From: a virus
DNA length: 43,300 nt
Direction: 5' to 3' (one strand)
IMG/VR virus record: IMGVR_UViG_3300046501_000053
Span: 1-43,300 of that record
Below are positions 2,438-42,199 of this stretch, one piece after another. Position 1 is the first letter of the stretch. Each line of letters begins with the position of its first letter. The position numbers were made by a program, and so were the translations under genes. The notes below the pieces were generated by a model. The model had not been told where the DNA came from, made no database searches, and saw nothing but the letters and a program-made list of their open reading frames with translations.

Positions 2438-3169
2438 CTATCGGGATTTGGCGGCACGCTTGCGGAACTCGTAAACCATGCCGCGCAGATCTACGAGGGC
2501 TTCCTGCAGGTCGCTGCGAGTGGAGTCGATATTCTCGAGCAGTTCACCTTCACCATCGTCGCCGCCCTCATCAACGGCCAGCAGAGCCAGTCCGTATGAC
2601 TGGAACTTCGCCAGCACGTCGTCGGCTGACTTGGCCATGTACTCGGCGTGCTCGATGGCATAGTCCTCTGGTGACCGATCGGGATGCTCGGGACCTAGAG
2701 GGTTGGGCGAATAGCGCAAGGCAGACTTGTATGCAGCATCAAGTGCATCATCCAGGTCGCCGCCTGTCTTCTTGGCCTCGTTGAAGGCGATGATCATCTT
2801 CGCCCGCACGTCGTAGCAGCGCTCAACCGGCATGCATGCCATCTGCTCGCCCTGTGGCTTAGTCAACTCATCAATTCGCTCATCCGCTGCGGTCAGGCGC
2901 TCCTGAAGTGCGTTTATCTTCAGCTGTTGAGTATTCCAGGCTAGGCCCGCGTTATCGCATTCTTCCGGGTCGACCTGATCGCAATGGGGGCAGCGCGCGT
3001 CCTCGTGGTCGCCGGTGTCGGCGATCTGTTCGCCGCCAAGGCAATGGTAGCTGGGGTAGACCTCGCCACAACCTTGACACTCGACCACGAACGGGCCGCC
3101 GGTGTTGTCATGCGTGACGAGGCCCAAGGCCTTGCGCTGGGGGAGTTTGGTGCAGTGCGGTAAGGTCAT
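2438..3169 (-). CDS. Zinc-ribbon and coiled-coil hypothetical protein (243 aa)
   Basis: The N-terminal 75 residues contain two cysteine clusters, CQGCGEVYPSYHC and CPHCDQVDPEEC, consistent with zinc ribbons. A coiled coil follows near residues 78-105 (LKINALQERLTAADERIDEL). The middle (DRSPEDYAIEHAEYMAKSADDVLAKF) resembles segments found in other phage early proteins. The C-terminus is acidic, then basic (FRKRAAKSR). The ATG overlaps the stop of the DUF4406 gene (ATGA). No enzymatic motif is seen; a nucleic-acid or protein scaffold role is possible. Confidence 0.5.
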   Translation of the reverse strand: MTLPHCTKLPQRKALGLVTHDNTGGPFVVECQGCGEVYPSYHCLGGEQIADTGDHEDARCPHCDQVDPEECDNAGLAWNTQQLKINALQERLTAADERIDELTKPQGEQMACMPVERCYDVRAKMIIAFNEAKKTGGDLDDALDAAYKSALRYSPNPLGPEHPDRSPEDYAIEHAEYMAKSADDVLAKFQSYGLALLAVDEGGDDGEGELLENIDSTRSDLQEALVDLRGMVYEFRKRAAKSR

Positions 3170-3480
3170 CCCGCAATCTCCTTCGATACCAGATCATGGG
3201 CATTCACAACCGTCATGCCGAGTCGTTCGGCGATCAGGACTTCCAGGCGGGCACCCTTTGAATGCTCCCAGCCAGGCAGGGTGGCCACGGTGTCGCACTC
3301 CATCAGGGCGACAATGTCGCGGCGCATGCAGTCAGTCCAGCTGCCGCCCTCGGGGTTGAGTTCGGCGGGGTTGGTGACGCCGTGGCCGCCGGCGCGCAGG
3401 CTGGCGGTCATGCTGTGGAAGGCGGGGAAGTTCAGGCCAGGCAAGCCGCTCATTGGCCCGCTGAGGTAGATACGTTTCAT
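3166..3480 (-). CDS. DUF4406 protein, nucleoside 2-deoxyribosyltransferase-like
   Basis: Opens with MKRIYLSGPMSGLPGLNFPAF, the diagnostic N-terminus of DUF4406, a Rossmann-like fold related to nucleoside deoxyribosyltransferases. NPAEL, the acidic MECDTVATLPGWEHSKGA segment and LEVLIAERLGM follow in the family order, and the 104-residue length is typical. A role in nucleotide metabolism or nucleotide sensing is inferred from fold kinship only. Its start overlaps the stop of the methyltransferase remnant (ATGA). Confidence 0.8.
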   Translation of the reverse strand: MKRIYLSGPMSGLPGLNFPAFHSMTASLRAGGHGVTNPAELNPEGGSWTDCMRRDIVALMECDTVATLPGWEHSKGARLEVLIAERLGMTVVNAHDLVSKEIAG

Positions 3481-3776
3481 GCTGCCTCCATCAATGCTTG
3501 AATGATGCGTTGGCCCGCCAACGGCGGCACCGCGTTTCCAGTCATGTGCATGGTCAGCCGGTGGTTGTCCGGTCGCTGCGTGTCTTTCGGAAAGGATTGC
3601 GCGGCCATGGCCTCGTCGGCGGTAATCATGCGCATCCGATCACCGTCGACCACGGCCCATCGGTCCAGAGTGGTGATGGTGCCGATCGGGCGATCCAGGC
3701 TCCTGCCGGTGAGGCCTGACCCTGAGCCGTAATAGGGCATCACGAACCGCTCGCCGAACCGCTCCCGTCCATTCTT
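3477..3776 (-). pseudogene. C-terminal remnant of a cytosine-C5 DNA methyltransferase
   Basis: In its own frame this stretch encodes the end of a Dcm-type phage methyltransferase: GRERFGERFVMPYYGSGSG, then DRPIGTITTLDRWAVVDGD, RMRMITADEAMAAQSFP, and motif X as HMTGNAVPPLAGQRI. Motif I and the catalytic Pro-Cys loop (motif IV) are absent, because the sequence upstream is reverse transcriptase in another frame. It is therefore a fragment of about 100 codons with no start of its own, left by a deletion that fused two genes. The tail still reads cleanly to its stop, suggesting a recent event. Confidence 0.8.
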
Positions 3777-4362
3777 CACGCGGGTCGTGCATGAGGATTT
3801 GTGTGGCCAGTGCCAGCCACCAGGGTTCGGTGATTCTGGCTTCCAACTGCTTGCGCAGCACCTCCTTGTCGATTGCAACGAAAAAGTTTGCCAGGTCGCA
3901 CTTGAGGTAGAAGATCGGTTTCGACCAGTTCTCGCTGGCGCTGCGGATCTTTGACTCCAGCCGCGTGGCGGCATACAACGTGCCGCGCCCTGGAATGCAT
4001 GCGCAACTGTCCGCTATGAAGCTGGCGTAGAAGCGCGGGGCCACATGGTTGTACATGAGGTGGTGGACGACGCGGTCCCGAAAGGCTGCCGCCCAAACTT
4101 CGCGGGCTTTCGGCCTGGTGACAACGAAACAAATGGAACGGCCTGGCCGGTAAGTGCCGGCAATCAGGTCGTCGTGTAGCTCCAGCAAGTTGATCTCCAT
4201 GTCCTTCTCGAACAGCCGAGCACTTGCGGTGTTCCGCTTGTTGCGTCGGCAGTCGTAGTAAGCCTGGACGAGATCCTCGAACTGGAAGGGGGCAACACTT
4301 AAATCTGCGGACAGGGCGCGCGAGCCGCTCGTTGTTCTTGTCGTTGTTGTTGAGCCAGCCAT
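3777..4362 (-). pseudogene. Truncated DGR reverse transcriptase
   Basis: About 176 residues match the N-terminal half of DGR (Bordetella bRT-like) reverse transcriptases: FQFEDLVQAYYDCRRNKRN, FEKDMEINLLELHDDLIAG, AFRDRVVHHLMYNHVAPRF, IPGRGTLYAATRLESKI and motif A, YLKCDLANFFVAID, with the first catalytic Asp. Just after MHDPRE the frame runs into methyltransferase DNA, and no YxDD motif or thumb is found anywhere on this strand. Family members are normally 300-400 residues. The start is unclear: an in-frame ATG at 4362 and a TTG at 4368 lie inside the template repeat, and there is no good ATG after it. Target genes, Avd and TR all lie just upstream in the same direction. Confidence 0.85.
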
Positions 4363-4405
4363 CTTCAAAGTCCATGTTGTAGGCGTTGTTGGCGGAGCGC
4401 TGCGA
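4305..4405 (-). repeat. DGR template repeat (TR)
   Basis: This 101-bp non-coding copy matches the 3' ends of the two target genes. On the minus strand its centre is a run of AAC, ATG, GAC, GAA and AAG codon-like triplets with 28 adenines, flanked by invariant ends (TCGCAGCGCTCCGCC on one side and a GC-rich 26-base end on the other). Every difference from VR1 (10) and VR2 (14) falls on a template adenine, the signature of DGR mutagenic retrohoming. It sits between avd and the reverse transcriptase, the usual place. Confidence 0.95.
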
Positions 4406-4574
4406 CCTGTCGAGCTATCTACATCGCCAAACCGAAGGCAGTGCCGATCAGCTTGGAAACTGCGCGAGACCTACGCGGACGTTTTAGACCGGCGGTATCT
4501 GTTGTGCGCATGGCGGTGACCCAGAGGTCAGCGGCTCGACCAGATTTGGCGCACAGGCAAGAGGGCCTTGACCC
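4406..4574 (-). other. Leader between avd and TR, with an operator-like site
   Basis: This non-coding stretch between the avd stop and the TR probably forms the 5' part of the TR RNA, which in studied DGRs is needed for priming and RT binding. It contains an imperfect operator-like palindrome at 4485-4499 (ACCGGCGGTAT core) that matches the phage operator consensus AATACCGNCGGTATT at 11 of 14 specified bases. No convincing -35/-10 pair was found beside it. Confidence 0.5.
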
Positions 4575-4928
4575 TCAAGCAGCGGGCGCGGTTGCGGATT
4601 TCTTCCAGGCGTTTGCCTGGCGGCCAACTGAGGCCGTCATCATCATTGCTCTGGCGTGCTGCCCCTTGCTGATCAATCCTCGATTGGTGAGGGCGCGCAG
4701 CAAGTAGTTGAGCATCCAGATGCTTTCCAGCAGGAGGTTGATCTGGGGCAATTTGTCCCGGGTCATGTTGGCCCGACCGATCAGCACCAGGACCTGCAAG
4801 CACTCGTCCCGAATCTTTGCCCCGACAACCTGTTTCAGGTCGCGCGGGATATTGCGCACCAGGTCAAGCGAAAGGCCGAGCAGCTCCTCGGCAACCTTGT
4901 GGATTTCCAAATCCGTATGCAGCGCCAT
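4575..4928 (-). CDS. avd: Avd-like DGR accessory protein (four-helix bundle)
   Basis: A 117-residue, all-helical, basic protein of the four-helix-bundle (S23/Avd) family. Characteristic segments are DLEIHKVAEELLGLSLDLV, NIPRDLKQVVGAKIRDECL, LVLIGRANMTRDKLPQI and LLLESIWMLNYLLRALTNR. Avd forms a pentameric barrel that binds nucleic acid and the reverse transcriptase and is required for mutagenic retrohoming in the Bordetella phage system. The start is the ATG at 4928 (AGGAG eight bases upstream). Its length is normal and it appears intact, unlike the reverse transcriptase. Its place between targets and TR fits a DGR cassette. Confidence 0.88.
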   Translation of the reverse strand: MALHTDLEIHKVAEELLGLSLDLVRNIPRDLKQVVGAKIRDECLQVLVLIGRANMTRDKLPQINLLLESIWMLNYLLRALTNRGLISKGQHARAMMMTASVGRQANAWKKSATAPAA

Positions 4929-4985
4929 CCCTGGACTCCTGAAAAGCGAGGGTGCTATCGCACCCATGAATGAAGAATTGAATGA

Positions 4986-5573
4986 TCAAATAAACTTTCT
5001 GCGGACAGGGCGCGCGAGCCGCTCGTTGCTCTTGTCGTTGTCGAAGAGCCAGCCATCTACAAAGTCCACGTAGTAGGCGAAGTCGGCGGAGCGCTGCGAA
5101 CTGGTCCAGTGATACGCCTGGGTAAACACCTCCGGCACCGTGATTTCAAGGAAGGACGCCTCCCGGCGCGCCATCAGGTAGAAGTCTTTGTGTCCGTCGC
5201 GCTCGAAAGCGGCGCAGAACTGGGCTGCCGGGTGCGAGGTGTCGACGCCGACCAGGTCAGCAGTATTTGCCTGTCCATCCCATGGGCTGTTGGCGCCGTT
5301 CAGTTCATCGCCGTACCCGCCCCACTCATGGGTGGCTTCGGCATCGGCGCCGGTCGGCACGATGAGGTAGTAGGGCTTGTCGCCGCCAGGGAATAGTCCA
5401 CCGTTCACGCCGCCTTCGCCCGGCCAGTACTCGCCGATGGCGGGGATGCCGCTTAACGCAATGGCCGGTGTGGCGGCGATGGCCAGGGTTGCCAGCTTCA
5501 GCACCACCCCTTCGTCCGGGCTGCTGATAGTCAGATCACCACGGGTGTACGTGGTCAGTTCATTTGCGCGCAT
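4986..5573 (-). CDS. DGR variable target protein 1 (195 aa)
   Basis: A C-type-lectin-like/DUF1566-type protein whose last 40 residues are variable region VR1. The middle carries IPAIGEYWPGEGGVNGG and PYYLIVP, then YHWTSSQRSADFAYYVDF and the invariant ERLARPVRR end. In such folds the variable residues lie on an exposed ligand-binding face. The start is the ATG at 5573 with AGGAG eight bases upstream. It has no signal peptide and is encoded among early genes, far from the tail module, so its ligand is probably not the usual tail-fibre receptor. It follows target 2 in the same transcript direction. Confidence 0.85.
   Translation of the reverse strand: MRANELTTYTRGDLTISSPDEGVVLKLATLAIAATPAIALSGIPAIGEYWPGEGGVNGGLFPGGDKPYYLIVPTGADAEATHEWGGYGDELNGANSPWDGQANTADLVGVDTSHPAAQFCAAFERDGHKDFYLMARREASFLEITVPEVFTQAYHWTSSQRSADFAYYVDFVDGWLFDNDKSNERLARPVRRKFI
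4999..5099 (-). repeat. DGR variable repeat VR1
   Basis: 101 bp aligned without gaps to the TR at 4305-4405. The ten differences change AAC to GAC, TTC, TAC, TTC, GAC and AGC, ATG to GTG and GAA to GTA; all sit on template adenines. The 15 bases at the upstream end and the 26 GC-rich bases at the downstream end are identical to the TR. The downstream block is the expected initiation region of mutagenic homology. Confidence 0.95.
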
Positions 5574-5637
5574 GAGATGCTCCTATGAGCGGAATAAGGG
5601 TGCAGGTAGCCGGCGCTTCCCGACGAGCTTCTGGTCT

Positions 5638-5656
5638 GAGCGCCGTCCTGGCGCTC
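5638..5656 (-). other. Stem-loop downstream of VR2
   Basis: A perfect 7-bp inverted repeat (GAGCGCC / GGCGCTC) with a five-base loop lies in the gap between target 2 and target 1, about 40 bases after the stop of target 2. DGRs often have a DNA hairpin just after the VR that aids retrohoming, so that is one reading. It could equally be an mRNA structure ahead of target 1. There is no T run, so it is not a standard terminator. No equivalent stem was found after VR1. Confidence 0.45.
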
Positions 5657-5693
5657 CCGGGAATCACCTGCGAAAAACGATTGAAGGAATGAA

Positions 5694-6170
5694 TTACTGA
5701 ATAGGGAGGCTGCGGACAGGGCGCGCGAGCCGCTCGCGGTCCTCGCCGTCGCCGCTGAGCCAGCCATCTCCAAAGCCCATGGTGTAGGCGGTGTCGGCGG
5801 AGCGCTGCGAGCTCAACCAGTGGAAGCGCTCTTCGTTCATCGTTACCAGGCCGTCCGCCTGTGCCGCCTTAACCAGCTGCCCCTCAAGGCAGGAAGGGAT
5901 GTGCCCGCCCAACTCAAGAGCCTTGATGGCGATCACGCTGCCAGCTTCTGCCATGGCGCGGGTATTCGCTTCGCCGTCGCTGTAGCTGTCGGCGCCTTTG
6001 ATCTTTACGCCGTACTCGCCCCAGGGCCCGACGAGTTCGTCAGGCAGCTGGATCAGGGCGCGCTCGACGCCGTTGAGCCAGTAGCGGGTGATGAACACGC
6101 CACCGGCCAGCGGTTGGCCGCGCTCGGGGAGTTCGGCGGCGAGTACTGCTTGCTGTGCTTGCTTGGTCAT
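5694..6170 (-). CDS. DGR variable target protein 2 (158 aa)
   Basis: A second protein ending in a variable region, VR2. The N-terminal part differs from target 1: GGVFITRYWLNGVERALIQLP and VGPWGEYGVKIKGADSYSDG, then RFHWLSSQRSADTAYTMGF and ERLARPVRSLPIQ. The shared WxSSQRSA...DGWL...ERLARPVR frame suggests the same C-type-lectin-like fold. The start is the ATG at 6170 with GGAG eight bases upstream. It lies upstream of target 1 and both lie upstream of avd, so one template serves two receptors. The substituted residues are Ser, Gly, Asp, Thr and Arg, unlike VR1, which gained Phe, Tyr and Val. Confidence 0.85.
   Translation of the reverse strand: MTKQAQQAVLAAELPERGQPLAGGVFITRYWLNGVERALIQLPDELVGPWGEYGVKIKGADSYSDGEANTRAMAEAGSVIAIKALELGGHIPSCLEGQLVKAAQADGLVTMNEERFHWLSSQRSADTAYTMGFGDGWLSGDGEDRERLARPVRSLPIQ
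5710..5810 (-). repeat. DGR variable repeat VR2
   Basis: 101 bp aligned without gaps to the TR. Fourteen differences, every one at a template adenine and dominated by A to G and A to C. The flanking invariant blocks match both the TR and VR1. VR1 and VR2 changed different subsets of adenines, so the two were diversified independently. Confidence 0.95.
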
Positions 6171-33231: not shown

Positions 33232-33395
33232 ATTGGTTCCTAATGCGCCCTTGTGTCGGGATTGTTGGTGTGTGCCCGCCGCTGTGCACATGGGCTCAAC
33301 TTGAAGACGGAACCCACTCCCTAGCCAGCGTCGAGCGATTTAACCAGGCCATGGACGAACTGTGGGATCAATACGAGGCTGCGAAGAATGGCTAG
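33168..33395 (+). CDS. Frameshift extension of the tail chaperone (GT-like)
   Basis: In the -1 frame there is no stop from the slippery site to the TAG at 33393-33395; the end overlaps the start of the tape measure gene. The segment after position 33243 reads MRPCVGIVGVCPPLCTWAQL and SLASVERFNQAMDELWDQYE, like the T-domain part of phage chaperones. A fusion would be 113 plus 75 residues. An internal ATG at 33243 could also start a separate 50-residue protein, but it has no Shine-Dalgarno. Confidence 0.7.
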   Translation, partial: RLAAKRRKRRSAAGRAKRSAVNWFLMRPCVGIVGVCPPLCTWAQLEDGTHSLASVERFNQAMDELWDQYEAAKNG

Positions 33396-34755
33396 CAAAG
33401 TACTGAAGTCATTCCTGATCGGCATCGGCTATGACACGAAGGCGCTGGAGGCGGGCGACAAGAAGATCGGCGCCAGCCTCAATGGGATCAAGTCGAATGC
33501 CCTGGGTATCTCGGCGGCCCTCGTCGGGGCCTTCGGCGCTGGCGCCAGCGCTATCGTTGGTGTGGCCAACCGCGTAGACAAGCTTGCAATGTCCACGCAG
33601 AACCTGCGTACCTCTCAGGCGGCCGTGTACAACTACGGCAACGCCCTCAAGCTTATGGGGGGGGATGCGGCAGACGCGGTAGAAACCCTGGCGCACTTCG
33701 AAGAGATCCAGAACAACCTGCGCCTGAAGGGTGATGCTGGGCCGATCAATGACCTGGCTACCGCCGGCATTGATGTCAGCTCGTTGTATCAGACGAATAC
33801 TGGCGAGGAATTCATGCGCGCGATCGCGGACATGATCCCCAAGCTGGACGAGGGCCAGCGTGCCCAGGTTCAAAGCTCGCTTGGCCTGTCTGATGGCGTA
33901 TTCCGCTCGCTTGCTGGTGGCATTGAAAATCTCGACGAGACCATGAAGCGCGCCAATGCGCTGACTGGCAGTGTCGACCAGCTCACCGAGAACAGCAGAA
34001 AGCTTGCCGACAACTCGGCGCAGCTCGGCCTGATCATCGAAGGTGTCAAGAACGAACTGGCAGAGAAGTTTCTGCCAAGCCTGATCGGCGCGACTGAGGG
34101 GGTGAACAACTTCCTCAAGGAGTACCGACCGGAGATCAGCAAGGGCATCGATGCTCTGGCGGAAAACCCGCAGGCAACGGCTGGTATCGGCATTGGTGCT
34201 GCAACTACCGTCGCCGGGGCCGGGCTATCCAAGATCGGCTTGAGCGGTATTGGCGGCGCGCTGAAAGGTGCAGGGCAGATCGGCATGGCAATCAGCCTTG
34301 CCGACCTCATGACGCCTTACATTGACCCGATGTTCGACAAACTGTTTGGCGTCGACAGGGCAAAGTCCGAAGTGTATTCGGGCCAGGTGCAGCGGTCACA
34401 GGAGGATATCGAATACCTGGATCACCGGGATGGGGCGCCTATTGATCAGTCTGGAAATCCCTACGAGCAAATCCTTCCTCCGCAAATGGTCCAGCCTCAA
34501 TTGGATTCAATTTATGGTGAAAGAACGCCCGCAGACAGCATGCCGCCAGCCAGCGTCACCACTCCAGACGAGGATCGCCAGGCGTCGGCTGAGGCGCTTG
34601 CGGGTGTGCTGGCCCGCACGCCGATCAACGTGAAAAACCAACTCGGCATTACGCTTGAGCTTGACGGCCAAGCACTGGAAACCAAGATCAACCAGGTCAA
34701 CGAGCGCCAAAACTACGAAACGCTGGGTGACCTGAAGACCACAACGGAGCGATAG
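33388..34755 (+). CDS. Tape measure protein (short, 455 aa)
   Basis: Mostly helical and Ala/Gly-rich, with LIGIGYDTKALEAGDKKIGA at the start, SAALVGAFGAGASAIVGVAN and GIGIGAATTVAGAGLSKIGL as hydrophobic stretches, and a polar C-terminus. Tape measure length scales with tail length, so 455 residues predict a short contractile tail. It follows the chaperone frameshift pair, the universal order. Confidence 0.85.
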   Translation: MASKVLKSFLIGIGYDTKALEAGDKKIGASLNGIKSNALGISAALVGAFGAGASAIVGVANRVDKLAMSTQNLRTSQAAVYNYGNALKLMGGDAADAVETLAHFEEIQNNLRLKGDAGPINDLATAGIDVSSLYQTNTGEEFMRAIADMIPKLDEGQRAQVQSSLGLSDGVFRSLAGGIENLDETMKRANALTGSVDQLTENSRKLADNSAQLGLIIEGVKNELAEKFLPSLIGATEGVNNFLKEYRPEISKGIDALAENPQATAGIGIGAATTVAGAGLSKIGLSGIGGALKGAGQIGMAISLADLMTPYIDPMFDKLFGVDRAKSEVYSGQVQRSQEDIEYLDHRDGAPIDQSGNPYEQILPPQMVQPQLDSIYGERTPADSMPPASVTTPDEDRQASAEALAGVLARTPINVKNQLGITLELDGQALETKINQVNERQNYETLGDLKTTTER

Positions 34756-34757
34756 CC

Positions 34758-35414
34758 GTGAGCATTATCAACATCTTCACGCGCAAAGCCCCGACAATTG
34801 CCGGGTACTCGTTCGACGCGGTGCTGGAGGACACATTCGAGGCGACGGTGACGATCACCTCTATCCCGATTGAGTCGGGCGTGAGGATTTCAGACCATCG
34901 CATTCTGAACCCCTTCAAGTGGACCATGACCGGCGCAATCAGCAACAACCCGGTCAAGGTTCAGCTGACGGACTTCCTCGGCGGTGCGCTTTCCAACCTC
35001 ACCGACAACCCCATCGTATCCACGGTAGCGGGCCTGTCAGCTGGCTGGCTGGCTGGTAGCGACGAAACGCGCGCCAGCACCACTCTGGACTTCCTGATCT
35101 GGCTGATGAAGTCGTACGACCCGTTCGACATCGATGCCGGTGACATCCTGCTGAAGAACATGGCTATCACGCGCCTGTCCCGAACAAAGGAGCCAAGGAA
35201 CGAGGGTGGCCTGGAGTTCATCGTGGAGATGCAGGAGATCATCGATCTCGACCGCATACAGCGGGACTACCAGTGCACGCCTGACCAGCTGCGCGACGGA
35301 GACCCGTCAAAGTCGGCGCTGACCCGAGCCATCAACCGCGGGCAGGCCATTGCCAAAGAAGCATCCGACAGCGTTTCGAAGTCGGTAAACGGAATCCTTG
35401 ACGGAGTCGTCTGA
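34758..35414 (+). CDS. Dit-like / phage tail protein N-terminal type (218 aa)
   Basis: GTG start. APTIAGYSFDAVLEDTFEAT and SGVRISDHRILNPFKWTMTG at the front, then GGLEFIVEMQEIIDLDRIQR. It resembles the small baseplate adaptor family that follows the tape measure in related myophages. Confidence 0.75.
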   Translation: MSIINIFTRKAPTIAGYSFDAVLEDTFEATVTITSIPIESGVRISDHRILNPFKWTMTGAISNNPVKVQLTDFLGGALSNLTDNPIVSTVAGLSAGWLAGSDETRASTTLDFLIWLMKSYDPFDIDAGDILLKNMAITRLSRTKEPRNEGGLEFIVEMQEIIDLDRIQRDYQCTPDQLRDGDPSKSALTRAINRGQAIAKEASDSVSKSVNGILDGVV

Positions 35415-35722
35415 TGTACACCATCCCGCTGCGCGCCGGTGCCGCCAACGCTCACCAGCGTTTTGGCGTACAGCTCGGTGACAACCTGATCGACTTTGAG
35501 ATTGACTTCATCTCCTATCTGGACGTACCGGCCTGGTCAATGAACCTGCTGCGTGATGGCAGCCGTATTGTGGCCGGTGCAATGCTTGAGCCTGGCAGCG
35601 ACATCATCCAGAGCTACCGATCCGGTATCGGGCAGATGGTCTTCACCGGCAAAGATGTGACCCTCGATAACCTGGGCGTCGATAACTTCCTCGTTTGGAT
35701 ACCCCCATTGGTGGAAACATGA
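35414..35722 (+). CDS. Baseplate plug-like protein (102 aa)
   Basis: MYTIPLRAGAANAHQRFGVQ and LIDFEIDFISYLDVPAWSMN match short baseplate plug proteins (DUF6983-like). It starts at the last base of the previous stop and overlaps the hub gene by four bases. Confidence 0.75.
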   Translation: MYTIPLRAGAANAHQRFGVQLGDNLIDFEIDFISYLDVPAWSMNLLRDGSRIVAGAMLEPGSDIIQSYRSGIGQMVFTGKDVTLDNLGVDNFLVWIPPLVET

Positions 35723-37134
35723 GAGAGCGTGTTTGGTCGATTGACGTGAATGGCCAGCCGTACATCGAGTCGCAGACTGGGCGCCGGCAGTTCCGCATTC
35801 AGTTCAATATCGATATCTCCCCCGGTGACGCGCTGTCGTTCGCCGACATCCGCCTCTACAACATGAACAAGGGATCTGCGATCGCGCAACGGTCAAGCAT
35901 CGTGCTGCGTGCTGGCTACAACGACAACGTCGACGCGATCTTCACCGGATTTGTGACCAACACTCTGCGGGAGCGCGAGCCAGGCGCTCCTGAGATCATC
36001 ACCAGGCTGATCTGCCGATCAGGTCAGCCGGCGGTTGATCGAGCATCTGCCCAGCTGTCATTCGGCATCGGCACCAGGGTGGAGGAGGTGATCCGCGCCT
36101 TGGCCGCGGCATGGCCTCTGCCGATCGATATCGACAACGCTCTGTTTGCCGACGCTAAGCCGCTATCTTCTGGCCTGGTGGTGGACGGCGATATCCCGCA
36201 AGCCATGACCGATCTGGCATACGCCTACAAATTTGAATGGATGCAGGACCGCGGGCGCATTGTCGTCACGAAGCCGAATATGCCGCGCACCACAACTATG
36301 GTGAAGGTAGATCAGTTCAGCGGAATGATCGGCATCCCAGAGGTCTCCCGCGGGCCTGACGGCCTCGGCGTGTTCGTGGCGGTTCAGCTCAACCCCGCGC
36401 TGCGCATCAACGGCAAGATCAACGTAGAGAGCGAATTCGCCACTTTCAATACCGGCAACCTTTTCGTGTCCGAGCTGAGCGGCGACGCCAGCGCAAACGG
36501 CGAGTACAACATTTTCGCCATGAAGCATTCCGGTGATTCGCATAGCGACCTATGGCGAACCGAAATCGACGGGCTGCGTGCTGGCACCACTCCTGCGGCG
36601 ACTGAGACCGCAACCCCGCAAAACGGCAAGCTTATCTGGGGCGCCAGGGTTGACCAGGCGTTCCGGGTAAAGGTGCGCGAGATATGCGACCGTCTGTCCT
36701 TCGACCCGAACTGGCTCATGGCTGTGATGGGCTTCGAGACTGGCTACACGTTTAGCCCTGCTGCGAGAAACCCAGGCAGCACCGCAACGGGTCTCATCCA
36801 GTTCCTGGAGGCGACCGCGCGCGCGGTCGGCACATCCACCGCCCAGCTTGCACGGATGACCGCAGTTCGCCAGCTCGACTACGTGGAGGCGTACTACAAG
36901 CCTTACTCAGGGCGTATCCGGAACCTCGGTGACGCTTACCTGGCTGTCCTTTGGCCGGCGGCAGTGGGGCGCCCGGATTCTTACGTGATGTGGGAGCGGG
37001 ATAGCGGCCCATACCAGCGCGAGTACGCGGCTAACTCCGGCCTGGACGTGAACCGCAACGGGGTTATCACCCGCGGCGAGGCCGTTGCATCCGTTAACAC
37101 CTCTTACATGCGCGGCCAGCAGTTCGTCAGGTGA
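35719..37134 (+). CDS. Baseplate hub protein with C-terminal lytic transglycosylase domain
   Basis: 471 residues. The first 290 resemble a gp44-type hub (FRIQFNIDISPGDALSFADI, LREREPGAPEIITRLICRSG). From about residue 305 an SLT/lysozyme-like domain follows: LSFDPNWLMAVMGFETGYTF with the catalytic Glu340, then NPGSTATGLIQFLEATARAV and GDAYLAVLWPAA. A fused murein hydrolase lets the tail cross the peptidoglycan, as T4 gp5 does. The ATG at 35719 overlaps the previous stop (ATGA). Confidence 0.85.
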   Translation: MRERVWSIDVNGQPYIESQTGRRQFRIQFNIDISPGDALSFADIRLYNMNKGSAIAQRSSIVLRAGYNDNVDAIFTGFVTNTLREREPGAPEIITRLICRSGQPAVDRASAQLSFGIGTRVEEVIRALAAAWPLPIDIDNALFADAKPLSSGLVVDGDIPQAMTDLAYAYKFEWMQDRGRIVVTKPNMPRTTTMVKVDQFSGMIGIPEVSRGPDGLGVFVAVQLNPALRINGKINVESEFATFNTGNLFVSELSGDASANGEYNIFAMKHSGDSHSDLWRTEIDGLRAGTTPAATETATPQNGKLIWGARVDQAFRVKVREICDRLSFDPNWLMAVMGFETGYTFSPAARNPGSTATGLIQFLEATARAVGTSTAQLARMTAVRQLDYVEAYYKPYSGRIRNLGDAYLAVLWPAAVGRPDSYVMWERDSGPYQREYAANSGLDVNRNGVITRGEAVASVNTSYMRGQQFVR

Positions 37135-37166
37135 GTCGCAGGCCCTCGAAATACATGCGCTCGATC

Positions 37167-37175
37167 TGCTACATT
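37167..37175 (+). promoter_or_regulatory. Extended -10 promoter of the second secreted gene
   Basis: TGCTACATT, an extended -10 some 40 bases ahead of the ATG at 37212. The surrounding bases (CTGCTACA and a following AATCAG) match those before the moron gene at 13139. Confidence 0.45.
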
Positions 37176-37211
37176 TCGCCGTAATCAGAAGGCTATTTAA
37201 AGGATGCTCCA

Positions 37212-37628
37212 ATGAAGAGCGCAGCCATGCTTGGCGCTTTTGTGCTGGTCGCCGTAGCGGGCTCCTGTGGAGCTTTTGCAGGCGACAGTGCGGCGCAGTG
37301 CGACGGTCGCCAGATGTACAACTATGTCGACACCGCGCTCATGGCTGGTAGCGGCGTGGTGAATGTTGCAAATGACCCAGCCTATGGTGGCGGCGCTGTA
37401 TCTCTGGCCCTCAAATCCCAAAACATGCAGACCTACAACGCCATGATCGCCGATATCAGGGAGCATGACCTTAGCCTGGCGCGCAGTGGCTGCAAGTCGC
37501 TGGTCAATGGTCCGACAAAAGGAATGATGACGAGCCTGCGCCAGGTCGAGGCGAAGATTAGAACCCTGGTGAATCGCCAGTACGGCGATAAGGGAATCCT
37601 TACTGACGGTTTCGGTGACATCAGATAA
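37212..37628 (+). CDS. Secreted hypothetical protein inside the tail module (moron)
   Basis: Signal peptide MKSAAMLGAFVLVAVAGSCG with probable cleavage at GAFAG. The mature part has Cys in QCDGRQMYNYVDTALMAGSG and SGCKSLVNG, with a helical C-terminus. Own Shine-Dalgarno (AAGGA), own promoter-like element and a terminator right after it show an independently expressed insert between hub and spike genes. Exported proteins are not tail parts, so a lysogen-related role is likely. Confidence 0.7.
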   Translation: MKSAAMLGAFVLVAVAGSCGAFAGDSAAQCDGRQMYNYVDTALMAGSGVVNVANDPAYGGGAVSLALKSQNMQTYNAMIADIREHDLSLARSGCKSLVNGPTKGMMTSLRQVEAKIRTLVNRQYGDKGILTDGFGDIR

Positions 37629-37655
37629 GCGCCAGCCACCGTAAATATTCAATAG

Positions 37656-37677
37656 ACCCGCTCCGGCGGGTTTTTTA
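37656..37677 (+). terminator. Rho-independent terminator after the second secreted gene
   Basis: A 6-bp perfect stem ACCCGC / GCGGGT with tetraloop TCCG, then six T. It would block leakage of the moron transcript into the downstream tail genes. Late transcripts must read through it. Confidence 0.85.
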
Positions 37678-37703
37678 TTGCCTGTGAGAAATGGAGGTCC
37701 GGA

Positions 37704-38411
37704 ATGCTTGAGTCAGAAGGTCGCGCAAAACAGGCGAAGCTGATCCGCGATTCTTTCCGTGAGCTGCAGAAAGGGGTTTTTACCTCGGTTCCCGGTCATA
37801 TTTTGGCGTTCAACCCCAAAACTCAGCTGGCTCAAGTGCAGGTTGGGATTGTCAGGGTTGACATCAACGATGCGGAATTCACCTTAAAGCCAATCATCGA
37901 AGTGCCAGTCTACTTCCCTGGTGGTGACTTCTGCCTCGAGTACCAGATAGACGATGGTTGCGAGGGTGACATCCTGTTCTCGCAGCGCTGTATTGATGGA
38001 TGGGTACAGAGCGGCGGGGTGGCATCCAACCCGATTGGGCGCTTCCACAACATACAGGACGCCATGTTCTTGCCGGGGTTCAGGTCTCAGCCCAACGTTT
38101 TGCCCGAATTCCAGAACAACGGCGTGCGCATGCGCAACCGTGCCGGCACCCAATTCGTCTGGCTGAAGAGCGACAACAGCATATCCATGGACAACGGGGT
38201 CGCCAGGTTCAACGTGCTGGCCGATGGCACAACCCTGATGCAGAACGGCGCCGGCAGCTTCCAGTTGCAGGCCGACGGCACTTTCCTGATCAACGGGCTG
38301 AAGATCACGCCGGACGGCAACGTCATCACCGCCGCCGGCACAAACCTCAACACGCACCGCCATGGCGGTGTAACCCCGGGCTCCGGGACAAGCGGAGTTC
38401 CAGTTCCATGA
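37704..38411 (+). CDS. Baseplate spike protein (gpV / Gp138-like)
   Basis: 235 residues. The OB-like N-terminal domain (GVFTSVPGHILAFNPKTQLA, PVYFPGGDFCLEYQIDDGCE) is typical of Gp138/gpV spikes; the C-terminal half is a repetitive beta helix (GTTLMQNGAGSFQLQADGTF) ending in NTHRHGGVTPGSG with an HxH motif. In P2-like spikes HxH holds an iron ion at the tip. Membrane-piercing spike of the contractile tail. Confidence 0.85.
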   Translation: MLESEGRAKQAKLIRDSFRELQKGVFTSVPGHILAFNPKTQLAQVQVGIVRVDINDAEFTLKPIIEVPVYFPGGDFCLEYQIDDGCEGDILFSQRCIDGWVQSGGVASNPIGRFHNIQDAMFLPGFRSQPNVLPEFQNNGVRMRNRAGTQFVWLKSDNSISMDNGVARFNVLADGTTLMQNGAGSFQLQADGTFLINGLKITPDGNVITAAGTNLNTHRHGGVTPGSGTSGVPVP

Positions 38412-38758
38412 CCGTACGCAGGCTGGACGAAGATACGGGCGACATCGTGACGCGCGGGCAGCAATTCATCACCGGCCAGTCCGAGGTTGCCCAGACCGTG
38501 CTTACCCGGTTGCGCCTGTTCCTGGGCGAGTACTTCCGGGACATCACCGATGGCACGCCGTGGTACGAGCAGATCCTGGGCAAGTTCACCAGCCTATCCA
38601 CCGCCGAGGCGGCACTCAGGGCGCGCATCGCCAACACGCCCGGCGTGATCCGGCTCACCAGCTTCTCCGCTGACTTTGACATCAATAACCGCACCTACAG
38701 CGTAACAGCTGGGATTCTCACCGAGTTCGGTCTGGAAGAGGTAACACTGAATGGCTAG
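38408..38758 (+). CDS. Baseplate wedge protein (gp25 / W-like)
   Basis: 116 residues from the ATGA overlap. MTVRRLDEDTGDIVTRGQQF, RLFLGEYFRDITDGTPWYEQ and TPGVIRLTSFSADFDINNRT fit the small wedge subunit family that starts sheath assembly. It overlaps the J-like gene by eight bases. Confidence 0.78.
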   Translation: MTVRRLDEDTGDIVTRGQQFITGQSEVAQTVLTRLRLFLGEYFRDITDGTPWYEQILGKFTSLSTAEAALRARIANTPGVIRLTSFSADFDINNRTYSVTAGILTEFGLEEVTLNG

Positions 38759-39965
38759 CCTGACTTCGACCGGCTACGTGCTACAGACGCAAAATGACTG
38801 GTTCGCCCAGGAGCGGCAGTTATATCTGGACATCGATCCACTATGGAACCTAGACCCGTCGACGCCTGACGGCCTGAAAATGGCGCACGACTCCGAGATC
38901 TTCTATGCGCTCGACGAGACGCTGCAGCAGGCCTACAACTCTAAAGATCCGAACAAGGCCAAGGGAAACGATCTCGATATTGTCTGCTCGCTGACTGGCA
39001 CCATCCGCTCTGGTGGTTCGAGATCCAACACCCCGCTAACGCTAATCGCCACGCCAGGTACCGTTATTCCGGCTGGAAACCGATTTGAGTCGATCACCAC
39101 CGGCAGCCGATGGGTCACGGACCAGACTGTTACAGCGGACTCGCTGGGGTCGGCGACTGTCAACGCGACGTGCACAGTCGTCGGGCCTACCCAGGCTGAC
39201 GCTGGCACCATCACCCGCATCGTGGACGTGGTTGCCGGCCTTGCTGGCGTGACAAATGCCGCGCCAGCAACACCAGGTACTCAAGGGCAGCAGGATGAAC
39301 AGCTGCGCGTTACTCGAGCTACAGCAGTAGGGCGACCTGGCAACAACCAGATTGACTCCATGATCGGGGAATTGTTCGGGGTTGATGGCGTGCGCCGGGT
39401 GAAGGTCTACGAGAACGATACAGACAGTAGCGTGGTGTCGATAGGAAACCCATACGGGCTGCCACGCCACTCGATTGCGCCAATCATCGACGGGGGAACC
39501 GATGACGATGTGGCCATGGCGATCTACCTGAAGAAAAACCCAGGCGCATCGCTATACCAGGCTGGGACACCGTTTCAAGTAGAAGTGACATCGCCAAAAT
39601 ACCCAACCAACAAAAAGGTTATCAAGGCAAGCCGGCCGGCATACGTCGACATGATTATGGTGATCAATGTGAAAAACGACGGAACGCTGCCGCCCAATGC
39701 AGACCAGCTTATTAAAGAGGCGGTGATGGAGTACGCCGCCGGCGACCTGATCCCTGCGGATGTGGGCTTCAAGATCAGCGGGTTTGATATCGGCGAGACG
39801 GTCCCATTCAGCACAATGTTCACCCCAATCAACAAGGTCATCGGCTCTTATGGCAATAGCTACGTGACCCTGCTGCAGCTCAATGGCGCCCAAGCAAACG
39901 TTGCTATTGCCTTTAACCAGATGTCCCGCTGGACGGAGAGCAACATCACCGTAGTGATCACGTGA
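38751..39965 (+). CDS. Baseplate J-like protein
   Basis: 404 residues. Early GSRSNTPLTLIATPGTVIPA, then ATPGTQGQQDEQLRVTRATA and GVDGVRRVKVYENDTDSSVV, and the end PADVGFKISGFDIGETVPFS. This is the baseplate J/gp47 family, the wedge arm around the hub. The order gpV, W, J matches P2-type baseplates. Confidence 0.9.
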   Translation: MASLTSTGYVLQTQNDWFAQERQLYLDIDPLWNLDPSTPDGLKMAHDSEIFYALDETLQQAYNSKDPNKAKGNDLDIVCSLTGTIRSGGSRSNTPLTLIATPGTVIPAGNRFESITTGSRWVTDQTVTADSLGSATVNATCTVVGPTQADAGTITRIVDVVAGLAGVTNAAPATPGTQGQQDEQLRVTRATAVGRPGNNQIDSMIGELFGVDGVRRVKVYENDTDSSVVSIGNPYGLPRHSIAPIIDGGTDDDVAMAIYLKKNPGASLYQAGTPFQVEVTSPKYPTNKKVIKASRPAYVDMIMVINVKNDGTLPPNADQLIKEAVMEYAAGDLIPADVGFKISGFDIGETVPFSTMFTPINKVIGSYGNSYVTLLQLNGAQANVAIAFNQMSRWTESNITVVIT

Positions 39966-40606
39966 TGAACATCCCAGACCGAATTTACGCCCAGTACCGC
40001 GACAAGCCTAAGGCGGTGGCCTGGTACGCAATCGCCAGGGAGCTTGGCGGGAGCATTGAGGCGGCAGCTGAGGCTGTGCGCAAGAGCTACGACATCGACA
40101 CAGCTGTCGGAGAGCAGTTGAGTGTCATCGGTAGGATCGTCGTGGCGCCGCGGAGCTTTGTAGGATCGATGCCGATGAACCCTGGCCTGTTTGATCTAAC
40201 AGACGGCGATGAGTTTGGCGACGACGAGGCTATGTTCAGTGCTCTAACGATTGATCAAGACGGCCAACTCTCAGACGACCTATATCGGCTAGTCATCAAG
40301 GCCAAGATTGTTAAGAACAATGGCGACGCCTCGATAGAGAACATTCTTGATGGAATGAATTTTCTTCTGCCGAAAGCCGATGTGCTGCGTGTAACTGACG
40401 GCGAGGATATGTCGTTCAGTATCGAGTTCTACGGTCAGATAACCAACCTTGAGCGCTTCGCACTGCTCAATGCAGGCTTGGTTCCGAAGCCGCAAGCCGT
40501 GAGATTTAACGGATTCCTTGAAGGGTTCGATATGGTCGAATTTGGTGATGTTGATGCTGAATTTGGTGATGAAAGCGAAGAATTTGCAGGATATATAGGG
40601 GCGTAA
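39962..40606 (+). CDS. DUF2612 / gpI-like baseplate protein
   Basis: 214 residues. AQYRDKPKAVAWYAIARELG, VGEQLSVIGRIVVAPRSF and LYRLVIKAKIVKNNGDASIE give the DUF2612 pattern. The acidic end (EFGDVDAEFGDESEEF) is a short near-repeat. It connects the baseplate to the tail fibres. It overlaps the J-like stop (ATGA). AT content rises from the end of this gene into the tail fibre. Confidence 0.82.
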   Translation: MMNIPDRIYAQYRDKPKAVAWYAIARELGGSIEAAAEAVRKSYDIDTAVGEQLSVIGRIVVAPRSFVGSMPMNPGLFDLTDGDEFGDDEAMFSALTIDQDGQLSDDLYRLVIKAKIVKNNGDASIENILDGMNFLLPKADVLRVTDGEDMSFSIEFYGQITNLERFALLNAGLVPKPQAVRFNGFLEGFDMVEFGDVDAEFGDESEEFAGYIGA

Positions 40607-40607
40607 A

Positions 40608-41621
40608 ATGGCACTTAAGCTAAACGAGAGATATCCGAGCCGCTTCAATAACCCATCGGACGGATATCCACAGGGTTCTTTCAAAAACAGAACCACTCCA
40701 ACTTCGAAAGATGGCTCATACCTTGAGCAAGACTGGGCTAATGATAAAGAGGGATTCTTTCAGTCGCTTCTGTCGGCTGCCGTAGTACAGGCGAACGGAT
40801 CTGTAGATAGGGTAGGTAGTTCGCAATATTTCGATGCAATGAAATCCATTATTGCGAGTGCCGGTGTTAGCTTCAGTAATATCACAGGAAAACCGACCAC
40901 CCTTTCCGGGTACGGAATTACTGATGGCATGCTGAAAAATACTGGCGGCATCGGGTCCACCCTGAACACTCCAACAGCGTCCGACACCAACGCTGCTTTG
41001 GCTGGCGGCCTGTGGTCCTTGGCTGGGACTGCTAGTGCCCCGTTCGCCAACGGCATGCTCCTGCGCGGCAACTACAACGGCGCCTTGAGCTGGACCCAGA
41101 TCGCGACAAGCATCGATAACGCCGGGATGTTTTGGCAGGGCTCTATTAACGGAACCATCAACCCGTGGAGGCAGGTCTGGGACTCTGTAAGCTTCAACCC
41201 GGCATCCAAGATCAACGCCACAAACGTCGCAAATGCGGGCTTCGCCAACAGTACGACAGACACCCCGTTCATGACGCACTCCAACGGGACTACTGTAGCC
41301 CTGTCGAAGAAAAACACGGCTCAGCTGGCGACCTCCGGGTGGAGCAAAAACACTGACACCGGCGAGATCATTCAATGGGTTGAATATTTGATCGGGGATA
41401 TCCCATCCAACCCAACAAAAGCTGTAGCGTGGCCTATTTCTTTCCCTACTGCATGTCTCAATGTTATCTGTGGATTCAAGCAGTCCAGCACGTCATTCAG
41501 GGCAAACGCCACTGCCAATTATATCGGCGCAACCACCTCCGGATGTACCGTAAAACTGGATAACTGGGCCTCCGGCCAAGACCCGCAATTAACGCTAGTA
41601 GTGCAGGCTCGAGGTAACTAA
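40608..41621 (+). CDS. Tail fibre protein (gp53-like C-terminus)
   Basis: 337 residues. N-terminal NERYPSRFNNPSDGYPQGSF attaches to the baseplate; ITGKPTTLSGYGITDGM is a repeat typical of fibre shafts; the end LATSGWSKNTDTGEIIQWVE and LTLVVQARGN is a gp53-like receptor-binding tip. No sign of a DGR variable repeat in it. Codon use is more AT-rich at its start than in its neighbours, suggesting past exchange. Confidence 0.85.
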   Translation: MALKLNERYPSRFNNPSDGYPQGSFKNRTTPTSKDGSYLEQDWANDKEGFFQSLLSAAVVQANGSVDRVGSSQYFDAMKSIIASAGVSFSNITGKPTTLSGYGITDGMLKNTGGIGSTLNTPTASDTNAALAGGLWSLAGTASAPFANGMLLRGNYNGALSWTQIATSIDNAGMFWQGSINGTINPWRQVWDSVSFNPASKINATNVANAGFANSTTDTPFMTHSNGTTVALSKKNTAQLATSGWSKNTDTGEIIQWVEYLIGDIPSNPTKAVAWPISFPTACLNVICGFKQSSTSFRANATANYIGATTSGCTVKLDNWASGQDPQLTLVVQARGN

Positions 41622-41623
41622 AG

Positions 41624-42199
41624 ATGAAAATATACTTTCGCGCCAAAAATATTGGGTTTTACAGCGAAGAGGCCCATGGAGCTCGCACATTATTGATCCC
41701 GGATCCTAGCTGGGTTAGGCCTACCATTGCTTTTACCCCAGCAGATACTGGGATTGAGGATGTGCCGCCCGAGGAGACGCAGATCCCGGATATGAGCGTT
41801 TCAGCTCCATGGATCGAAGTCCCGAATCCGCTGTGCACACTGCCGCCCGAGTCGGAACTGGTTGAGATTTCGGAAGAAAAGTATGCCGAAATCTTTTCGG
41901 GTATCGCTTCGGAAATAAAGGAAATCGTAAGCGGCCCGGACGGATATCCGATGCTTAAGGATCCGGATCCCCTTACTCCGGAGCAGCTTTCCCTCTTTGC
42001 CACAACGAAAAGGGACGGGCTCCTGGTGCTGTCGGCGACAAGAATTGCTCCACTGCAGTCCGCCGTGGACCTGGATGACGCAACCGCCTCCGACATCGCC
42101 AATCTGAAAAAGTGGAAGCAATACCAGGTGGCGCTGAACCGCATCCAAGATCAGCCCGCATTCCCGCGGGACATCGCCTGGCCTGTTGAGCCGTCCTGA
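41624..42199 (+). CDS. Tail fibre assembly chaperone
   Basis: 191 residues. The N-terminal part begins MKIYFRAKNIGFYSEEAHGA; the C-terminal LSLFATTKRDGLLVLSATRI and LKKWKQYQVALNRI plus QPAFPRDIAWPVEPS are the standard end of Caudo_TAP chaperones. It folds or trimerises the fibre encoded just upstream. Confidence 0.88.
   Translation: MKIYFRAKNIGFYSEEAHGARTLLIPDPSWVRPTIAFTPADTGIEDVPPEETQIPDMSVSAPWIEVPNPLCTLPPESELVEISEEKYAEIFSGIASEIKEIVSGPDGYPMLKDPDPLTPEQLSLFATTKRDGLLVLSATRIAPLQSAVDLDDATASDIANLKKWKQYQVALNRIQDQPAFPRDIAWPVEPS

Follow-up and report, generated by a model that had tools for sequence, protein, structure and literature searches.

We find that the DGR of a temperate Pseudomonas-type phage carries, with a probability of roughly three in four, a real and recent loss-of-function deletion. 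About 1.2 kb would have been lost between two direct repeats of 11–14 nt, the first within the reverse transcriptase (RT) gene and the second within the methyltransferase gene that lies downstream of it. The deletion would have knocked out both genes and fused them out of frame, leaving the target genes, VRs, hairpins, Avd, RT-15 RNA and TR untouched. The two target proteins would then be locked in their current variants, except where an RT acts in trans or recombination with a relative restores the gene.

Organization of the DGR cassette

The window, i.e., the whole stretch of DNA analysed here, is a complete IMG/VR virus record, 43,300 bases long and without Ns. It encodes a CI-like repressor, an antirepressor, a terminase, a portal protein, a tape measure protein and baseplate proteins, and its annotated relatives are Pseudomonas phages. 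The record represents a temperate, Pseudomonas-type phage.

All parts of the cassette lie on the minus strand and are transcribed in the order target gene 2/VR2, target gene 1/VR1, avd, RT-15, TR, RT, methyltransferase C-terminus and DUF4406. Target gene 2 (5694–6170, 158 aa) and target gene 1 (4986–5573, 195 aa) both belong to phrog_4245 and carry VR2 (5709–5810) and VR1 (4998–5099) at their 3' ends. The DGR targets are two small proteins of the leftward early region (4986–6170) and not the tail fibre genes (33388–42199). The AF2 model of the target protein has a pLDDT of 78, with values below 50 in the VR segment; it gave no PDB fold match and is too uncertain for assignment of a C-type lectin-like fold.

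Compared with the 102-nt TR (4304–4405), VR2 is changed at 15 of 29 adenines and VR1 at 10 of 29, and neither differs at any of the 73 other positions. Together, 25/58 adenines and 0/146 other positions are changed (p ~2e-16). Intact relatives are alike in this respect, most of their VRs having 0 or 1 non-adenine mismatches. Several intact relatives (L156, L157, L005 and others) have a TR that matches that of the window at all 102 nt. A hairpin/cruciform feature is present downstream of both VRs. That after VR1 (4950–4965, GGGTGC-GATA-GCACCC) has a 6-bp stem and a GRNA-type tetraloop, and that after VR2 (5638–5656) is an inverted repeat with a 7-bp stem and a 5-nt loop, identical in L005. Hairpins with GRNA-type tetraloops occur in other phage DGRs (PMC3240598).

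The Avd accessory protein gene (4575–4967) matches bAvd (PF22296, E 6e-13) and phrog_3206 (E 2e-27). Between avd and TR lies a full-length RT-15 structured RNA (4403–4591, RF03018, 171 bits), whose end coincides with the start of TR. In 399 Pseudomonas genomes, every RT-15 place over the cut-off is followed, after ~40 nt, by a full-length RT from this DGR family. Because RT-15 abuts TR and precedes a full-length RT in this genome set, it looks like a structured 5' leader of the TR RNA. An earlier note on this DNA had said that TR, Avd and both VRs look intact, which agrees with our results; the RT-15 RNA and the VR hairpins, which it did not mention, are intact too.

The RT remnant and the methyltransferase remnant

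The RT gene remnant (3773–4362) extends from the start codon to MHDPRE. Its frame opens with the ATG at 4362, reads ...YLKCDLANFFVAID...ILMHDPREEW, continues for 42 unrelated residues and stops at 3640, confirming the earlier description of an RT that keeps motif A and ends after MHDPRE. The remnant matches phrog_1423 positions 107–275 and tracks intact homologues, with up to 97% identity, as far as MHDPRE (3773), after which the frame passes into out-of-frame methyltransferase codons. The intact RT of relatives has 385 aa and contains YVDD. About 190 of these 385 residues are lost here, including the IGNLSSQ motif, YVDD and the thumb, and motif A is retained. The absence of YxDD and thumb noted earlier holds across the 43.3-kb record: a tblastn search with an intact RT matched only residues 1–234 of the L005 open frame. 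The C-terminal half of the RT was likewise not found elsewhere in the window by tblastn, and no second RT was found in the record. Judged from these motifs, the remnant cannot make cDNA, because it has one catalytic aspartate motif only and lacks YxDD and the thumb. Homing in BPP-1 is abolished by mutation of the RT active site (PMC12875486). The RT gene start lies inside TR (4304–4362), an arrangement also conserved in intact relatives; TR therefore encodes the RT N-terminus.

The methyltransferase C-terminus (3477–3782) comprises 101 codons and a stop, and its frame ends with ...MTGNAVPPLAGQRIIQALMEAA at 3477. It covers PF00145 positions 269–322 of 324, which bears out the proposed out-of-frame passage into a cytosine-C5 methyltransferase. 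The methyltransferase of L079 has 307 aa, and its SPCCQ and ENV motifs fall in the part lost here. What the window lacks of this enzyme are thus its first 206 residues, which hold ENV and the catalytic cysteine motif (SPCCQ in relatives). The remaining part is conserved (omega 0.05 versus L079). On these sequence features, both enzymes, RT and methyltransferase, are predicted to be inactivated, and their genes are joined out of frame. A second, different phage DNA methyltransferase gene (phrog_954) nearby, at 1288–1758, looks intact.

Ancestral order and the probable deletion

The complete RT-methyltransferase-DUF4406 order is found in L079 and L083, and therefore a single deletion of ~1.2 kb explains the window, which is 1239 nt short when set against L079 and 1197 nt short when set against L083. 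The downstream neighbour, an intact DUF4406 gene (3166–3480), stands in the same order as in these two relatives. In blastn comparisons with the fetched viral loci, RT homology ends at 3773–3779 in nearly every relative, the exception being one contig fragment in which it ends at 3806, and methyltransferase homology begins between 3793 and 3782. The breakpoint is thereby located at the junction (3773–3786), which reads GACCCGCGTGA(AGA). The 11-nt stretch GACCCGCGTGA is common to RT (L007) and methyltransferase (L087, L093) sequences and grows to as many as 14 nt if one synonymous A/G difference among the RT relatives is allowed. A repeat of 11–14 nt shared by both parents suggests illegitimate recombination between short repeats, and we infer a deletion by this route. 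The undeleted order and the shared repeat both fit the earlier proposal that a deletion took the second half of the RT and the first part of the methyltransferase. The same junction was found neither in IMG/VR nor in GTDB genomes by a degenerate pattern search, no fetched locus gave a junction-spanning blastn match, and no plasmid matched the DGR remnant region.

Intact relatives and RT loss elsewhere in the family

Intact relatives are abundant. An essentially full-length RT was present in nearly all of ~70 related viral contigs and in 64/65 genome loci, and L079 and L083 have the methyltransferase as well. Pseudomonas phages Cruim01 (PP179333) and Haboob (OR683404) show the same order of targets, Avd, RT-15/TR and RT, but with a full-length RT, unlike the remnant here. 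RT genes of this family were found in 31 of the 399 Pseudomonas genomes, five of which have two copies, and none contains internal stops; in these genomes, each of the 35 RT-15 places and each of the 35 Avd places belongs to a cassette with a full-length RT. Among loci fetched by RT similarity, a full-length RT was usual, with L053 and L171 as exceptions, and the L074 RT has a stop only close to its last residues.

When viral contigs were searched with Avd as the anchor, 58 loci were obtained, two of which were cut by contig ends and left out. An intact RT was missing in 5 of the remaining 56 (L240, L250, L249, L265 and L273, the last being the same locus as L053). In L240, the RT-15 3' end, TR and the RT to about residue 346 are deleted, and in L250, TR after 26 nt and the RT to about residue 334 are replaced; a C-terminal stub remains in both. 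RT-15, TR and RT are all gone from L249 and L265, and L273 has a small deletion and a frameshift near RT residues 304–316. The RT of L171, from the isolate P. fluorescens HK44, breaks off at residue 301, after which the sequence passes downstream into the final part of the DUF4406 region. The breakpoints differ among the RT-defective loci, so the losses are independent events. RT loss, as read from these loci, recurs in this Pseudomonas phage DGR family, in at least six further loci including HK44, and is not peculiar to the phage studied here. The rate in viral contigs (5/56) was not significantly higher than that in genomes (0/35; p 0.15).

The VR-bearing target frames are still open in the RT-defective cases examined, although one L053 VR frame was not resolved, and most VRs of these loci fit the TR of a relative at non-adenine sites, usually with 0–3 mismatches. 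The RT would thus have been lost repeatedly and in most cases recently, and old RT-less cassettes would be few. Two of these loci have further peculiarities. The L053 TR (~3960–4066) is near-identical to its own VR (2587–2688) and has 21 adenines versus 29–31 in relatives, as if it had been overwritten by a VR. Of the two L171 VRs (3503–3604 and 4197–4298), one matches the TRs of relatives at every non-adenine site but has 4 such mismatches to the TR of L171 itself, and the other shows a perfect fit to the L171 TR; the last rewriting of the two targets therefore did not coincide. Homologues of the target protein also occur without a DGR RT of this family in G030, G097, G144, G276, G329, G357 and other Pseudomonas genomes. 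They could be solitary, unrelated genes or else RT-less relics of greater age.

Age of the loss

The RT loss looks recent, as the earlier note had suggested as one possibility. The VRs have no non-adenine mismatch, and of the changes private to the RT remnant among 22 distinct sequences, 8 are synonymous and none is nonsynonymous. If the neutral ratio is taken as 2.9, at most ~13% of the private branch post-dates the loss, although recombination among mosaic phages weakens this branch-based bound. Given the conserved RT and methyltransferase remnants and the adenine-only VR changes, either the loss is recent or an intact form is hidden behind the record.

Alternative explanations

The second of these options belongs to a broader reading, in which the junction is an artefact of template switching in library preparation or of assembly, or is a minority deletion allele alongside intact phages. 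The evidence for the junction comes from a single record, which counts against a real deletion, as do the distance to the nearest RT (~93% identical in DNA) and the nearest methyltransferase (~92%), found in different relatives, and the full-length RT of all other Avd and RT-15 cassettes in the 399 Pseudomonas genomes. The junction was seen in no second record, both of its flanks look pristine, and amplification chimeras also arise at short direct repeats. However, the join preserves the order of L079 and L083, the record contains no Ns, and comparable deletions occur in other family members, including an isolate genome. A stretch of 11–14 nt is shorter than usual assembler k-mers, and k-mer collapse over so short a stretch is unlikely to have made a chimera. 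Intact and disrupted DGR alleles have been found together in one Thiohalocapsa sample (PMC10907252), which favours a minority variant. We consider an artefact or minority variant unlikely.

The cassette might also be a non-autonomous DGR whose diversification continues in trans, through the RT of a related prophage that is co-resident or co-infecting. Every cis part of the cassette is intact, and its TR is identical to that of relatives whose RT is 97% identical. Two RT copies occur in 5/31 RT-positive Pseudomonas genomes, with identical TRs in three sampled cases. Moreover, avd, TR and brt function in trans for BPP-1 (PMC3240598), and natural trans action has been inferred in Thiohalocapsa (PMC10907252). 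On the other hand, no RT donor was found in the virus record, and the state of the VRs alone does not separate recent loss from trans action. Comparison of two DGRs in one genome does not resolve cross-homing in three of four pairs, because their TRs are identical; the VRs of the fourth pair (L156/L167) each agree with the TR of their own element. RT-less cassettes are few (5/56 evaluable Avd loci in viral contigs and 0/35 in genomes) and are therefore unlike a maintained class. It is improbable, for this phage as for the family's other RT-less cassettes, that they are non-autonomous DGRs diversified via the RT of a co-resident prophage with the same TR.

Illegitimate recombination between two different phages, rather than a deletion within one genome, could likewise have made the junction. 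These phages are mosaic, and the closest relatives of the RT and of the methyltransferase differ. However, L079 alone holds both genes in the right order, so one deletion suffices, and an origin from two phages seems rather improbable. Finally, it is scarcely credible that the joined reading frame encodes a functional new protein: the frame is open for 42 codons beyond the junction, but the added residues are out-of-frame, unconserved methyltransferase codons and the fusion occurs in no relative. A conserved RT-methyltransferase fusion, which the earlier note had named as an outcome that would contradict decay, is rejected, as no relative among the records searched spans the junction.

Comparison with known systems

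DGRs with a dead RT are already known, and the deletion reading adds a member with a distinct cause. DGRs with an inactivated RT and intact TR and VRs were reported in 2012 (PMC3521204, Fig. 4). Like the phage here, they have a broken RT, intact TR and VRs, and adenine-specific differences; however, their RTs were lost through nonsense mutations, insertion elements or frameshifts, whereas the phage here has a deletion into a neighbouring methyltransferase gene. The degenerate DGR loci of Thiohalocapsa PB-PSB1, described in 2024 (PMC10907252), also combine a missing or broken RT with persisting targets, and trans action or coexisting intact alleles have been proposed for them. These loci lie on a bacterial chromosome, are driven by mobile elements and do not form a prophage family. 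In BPP-1 deletion derivatives, targets without local machinery were diversified by avd/TR/brt in trans (PMC3240598); these are engineered forms of a Bordetella phage, unlike the natural deletion in a Pseudomonas-type phage. In Treponema denticola, target genes occur in strains without RT and TR (PMC4891356).

If a real, recent deletion is the correct reading, the targets of this cassette are probably now frozen. More broadly, phage DGRs shed their RT repeatedly, by different deletions, with the hypervariable target genes staying intact. Intact and RT-less examples stand side by side within one Pseudomonas phage family, making possible a natural test of whether such a phage freezes one useful variant, decays, or borrows the RT of another prophage.
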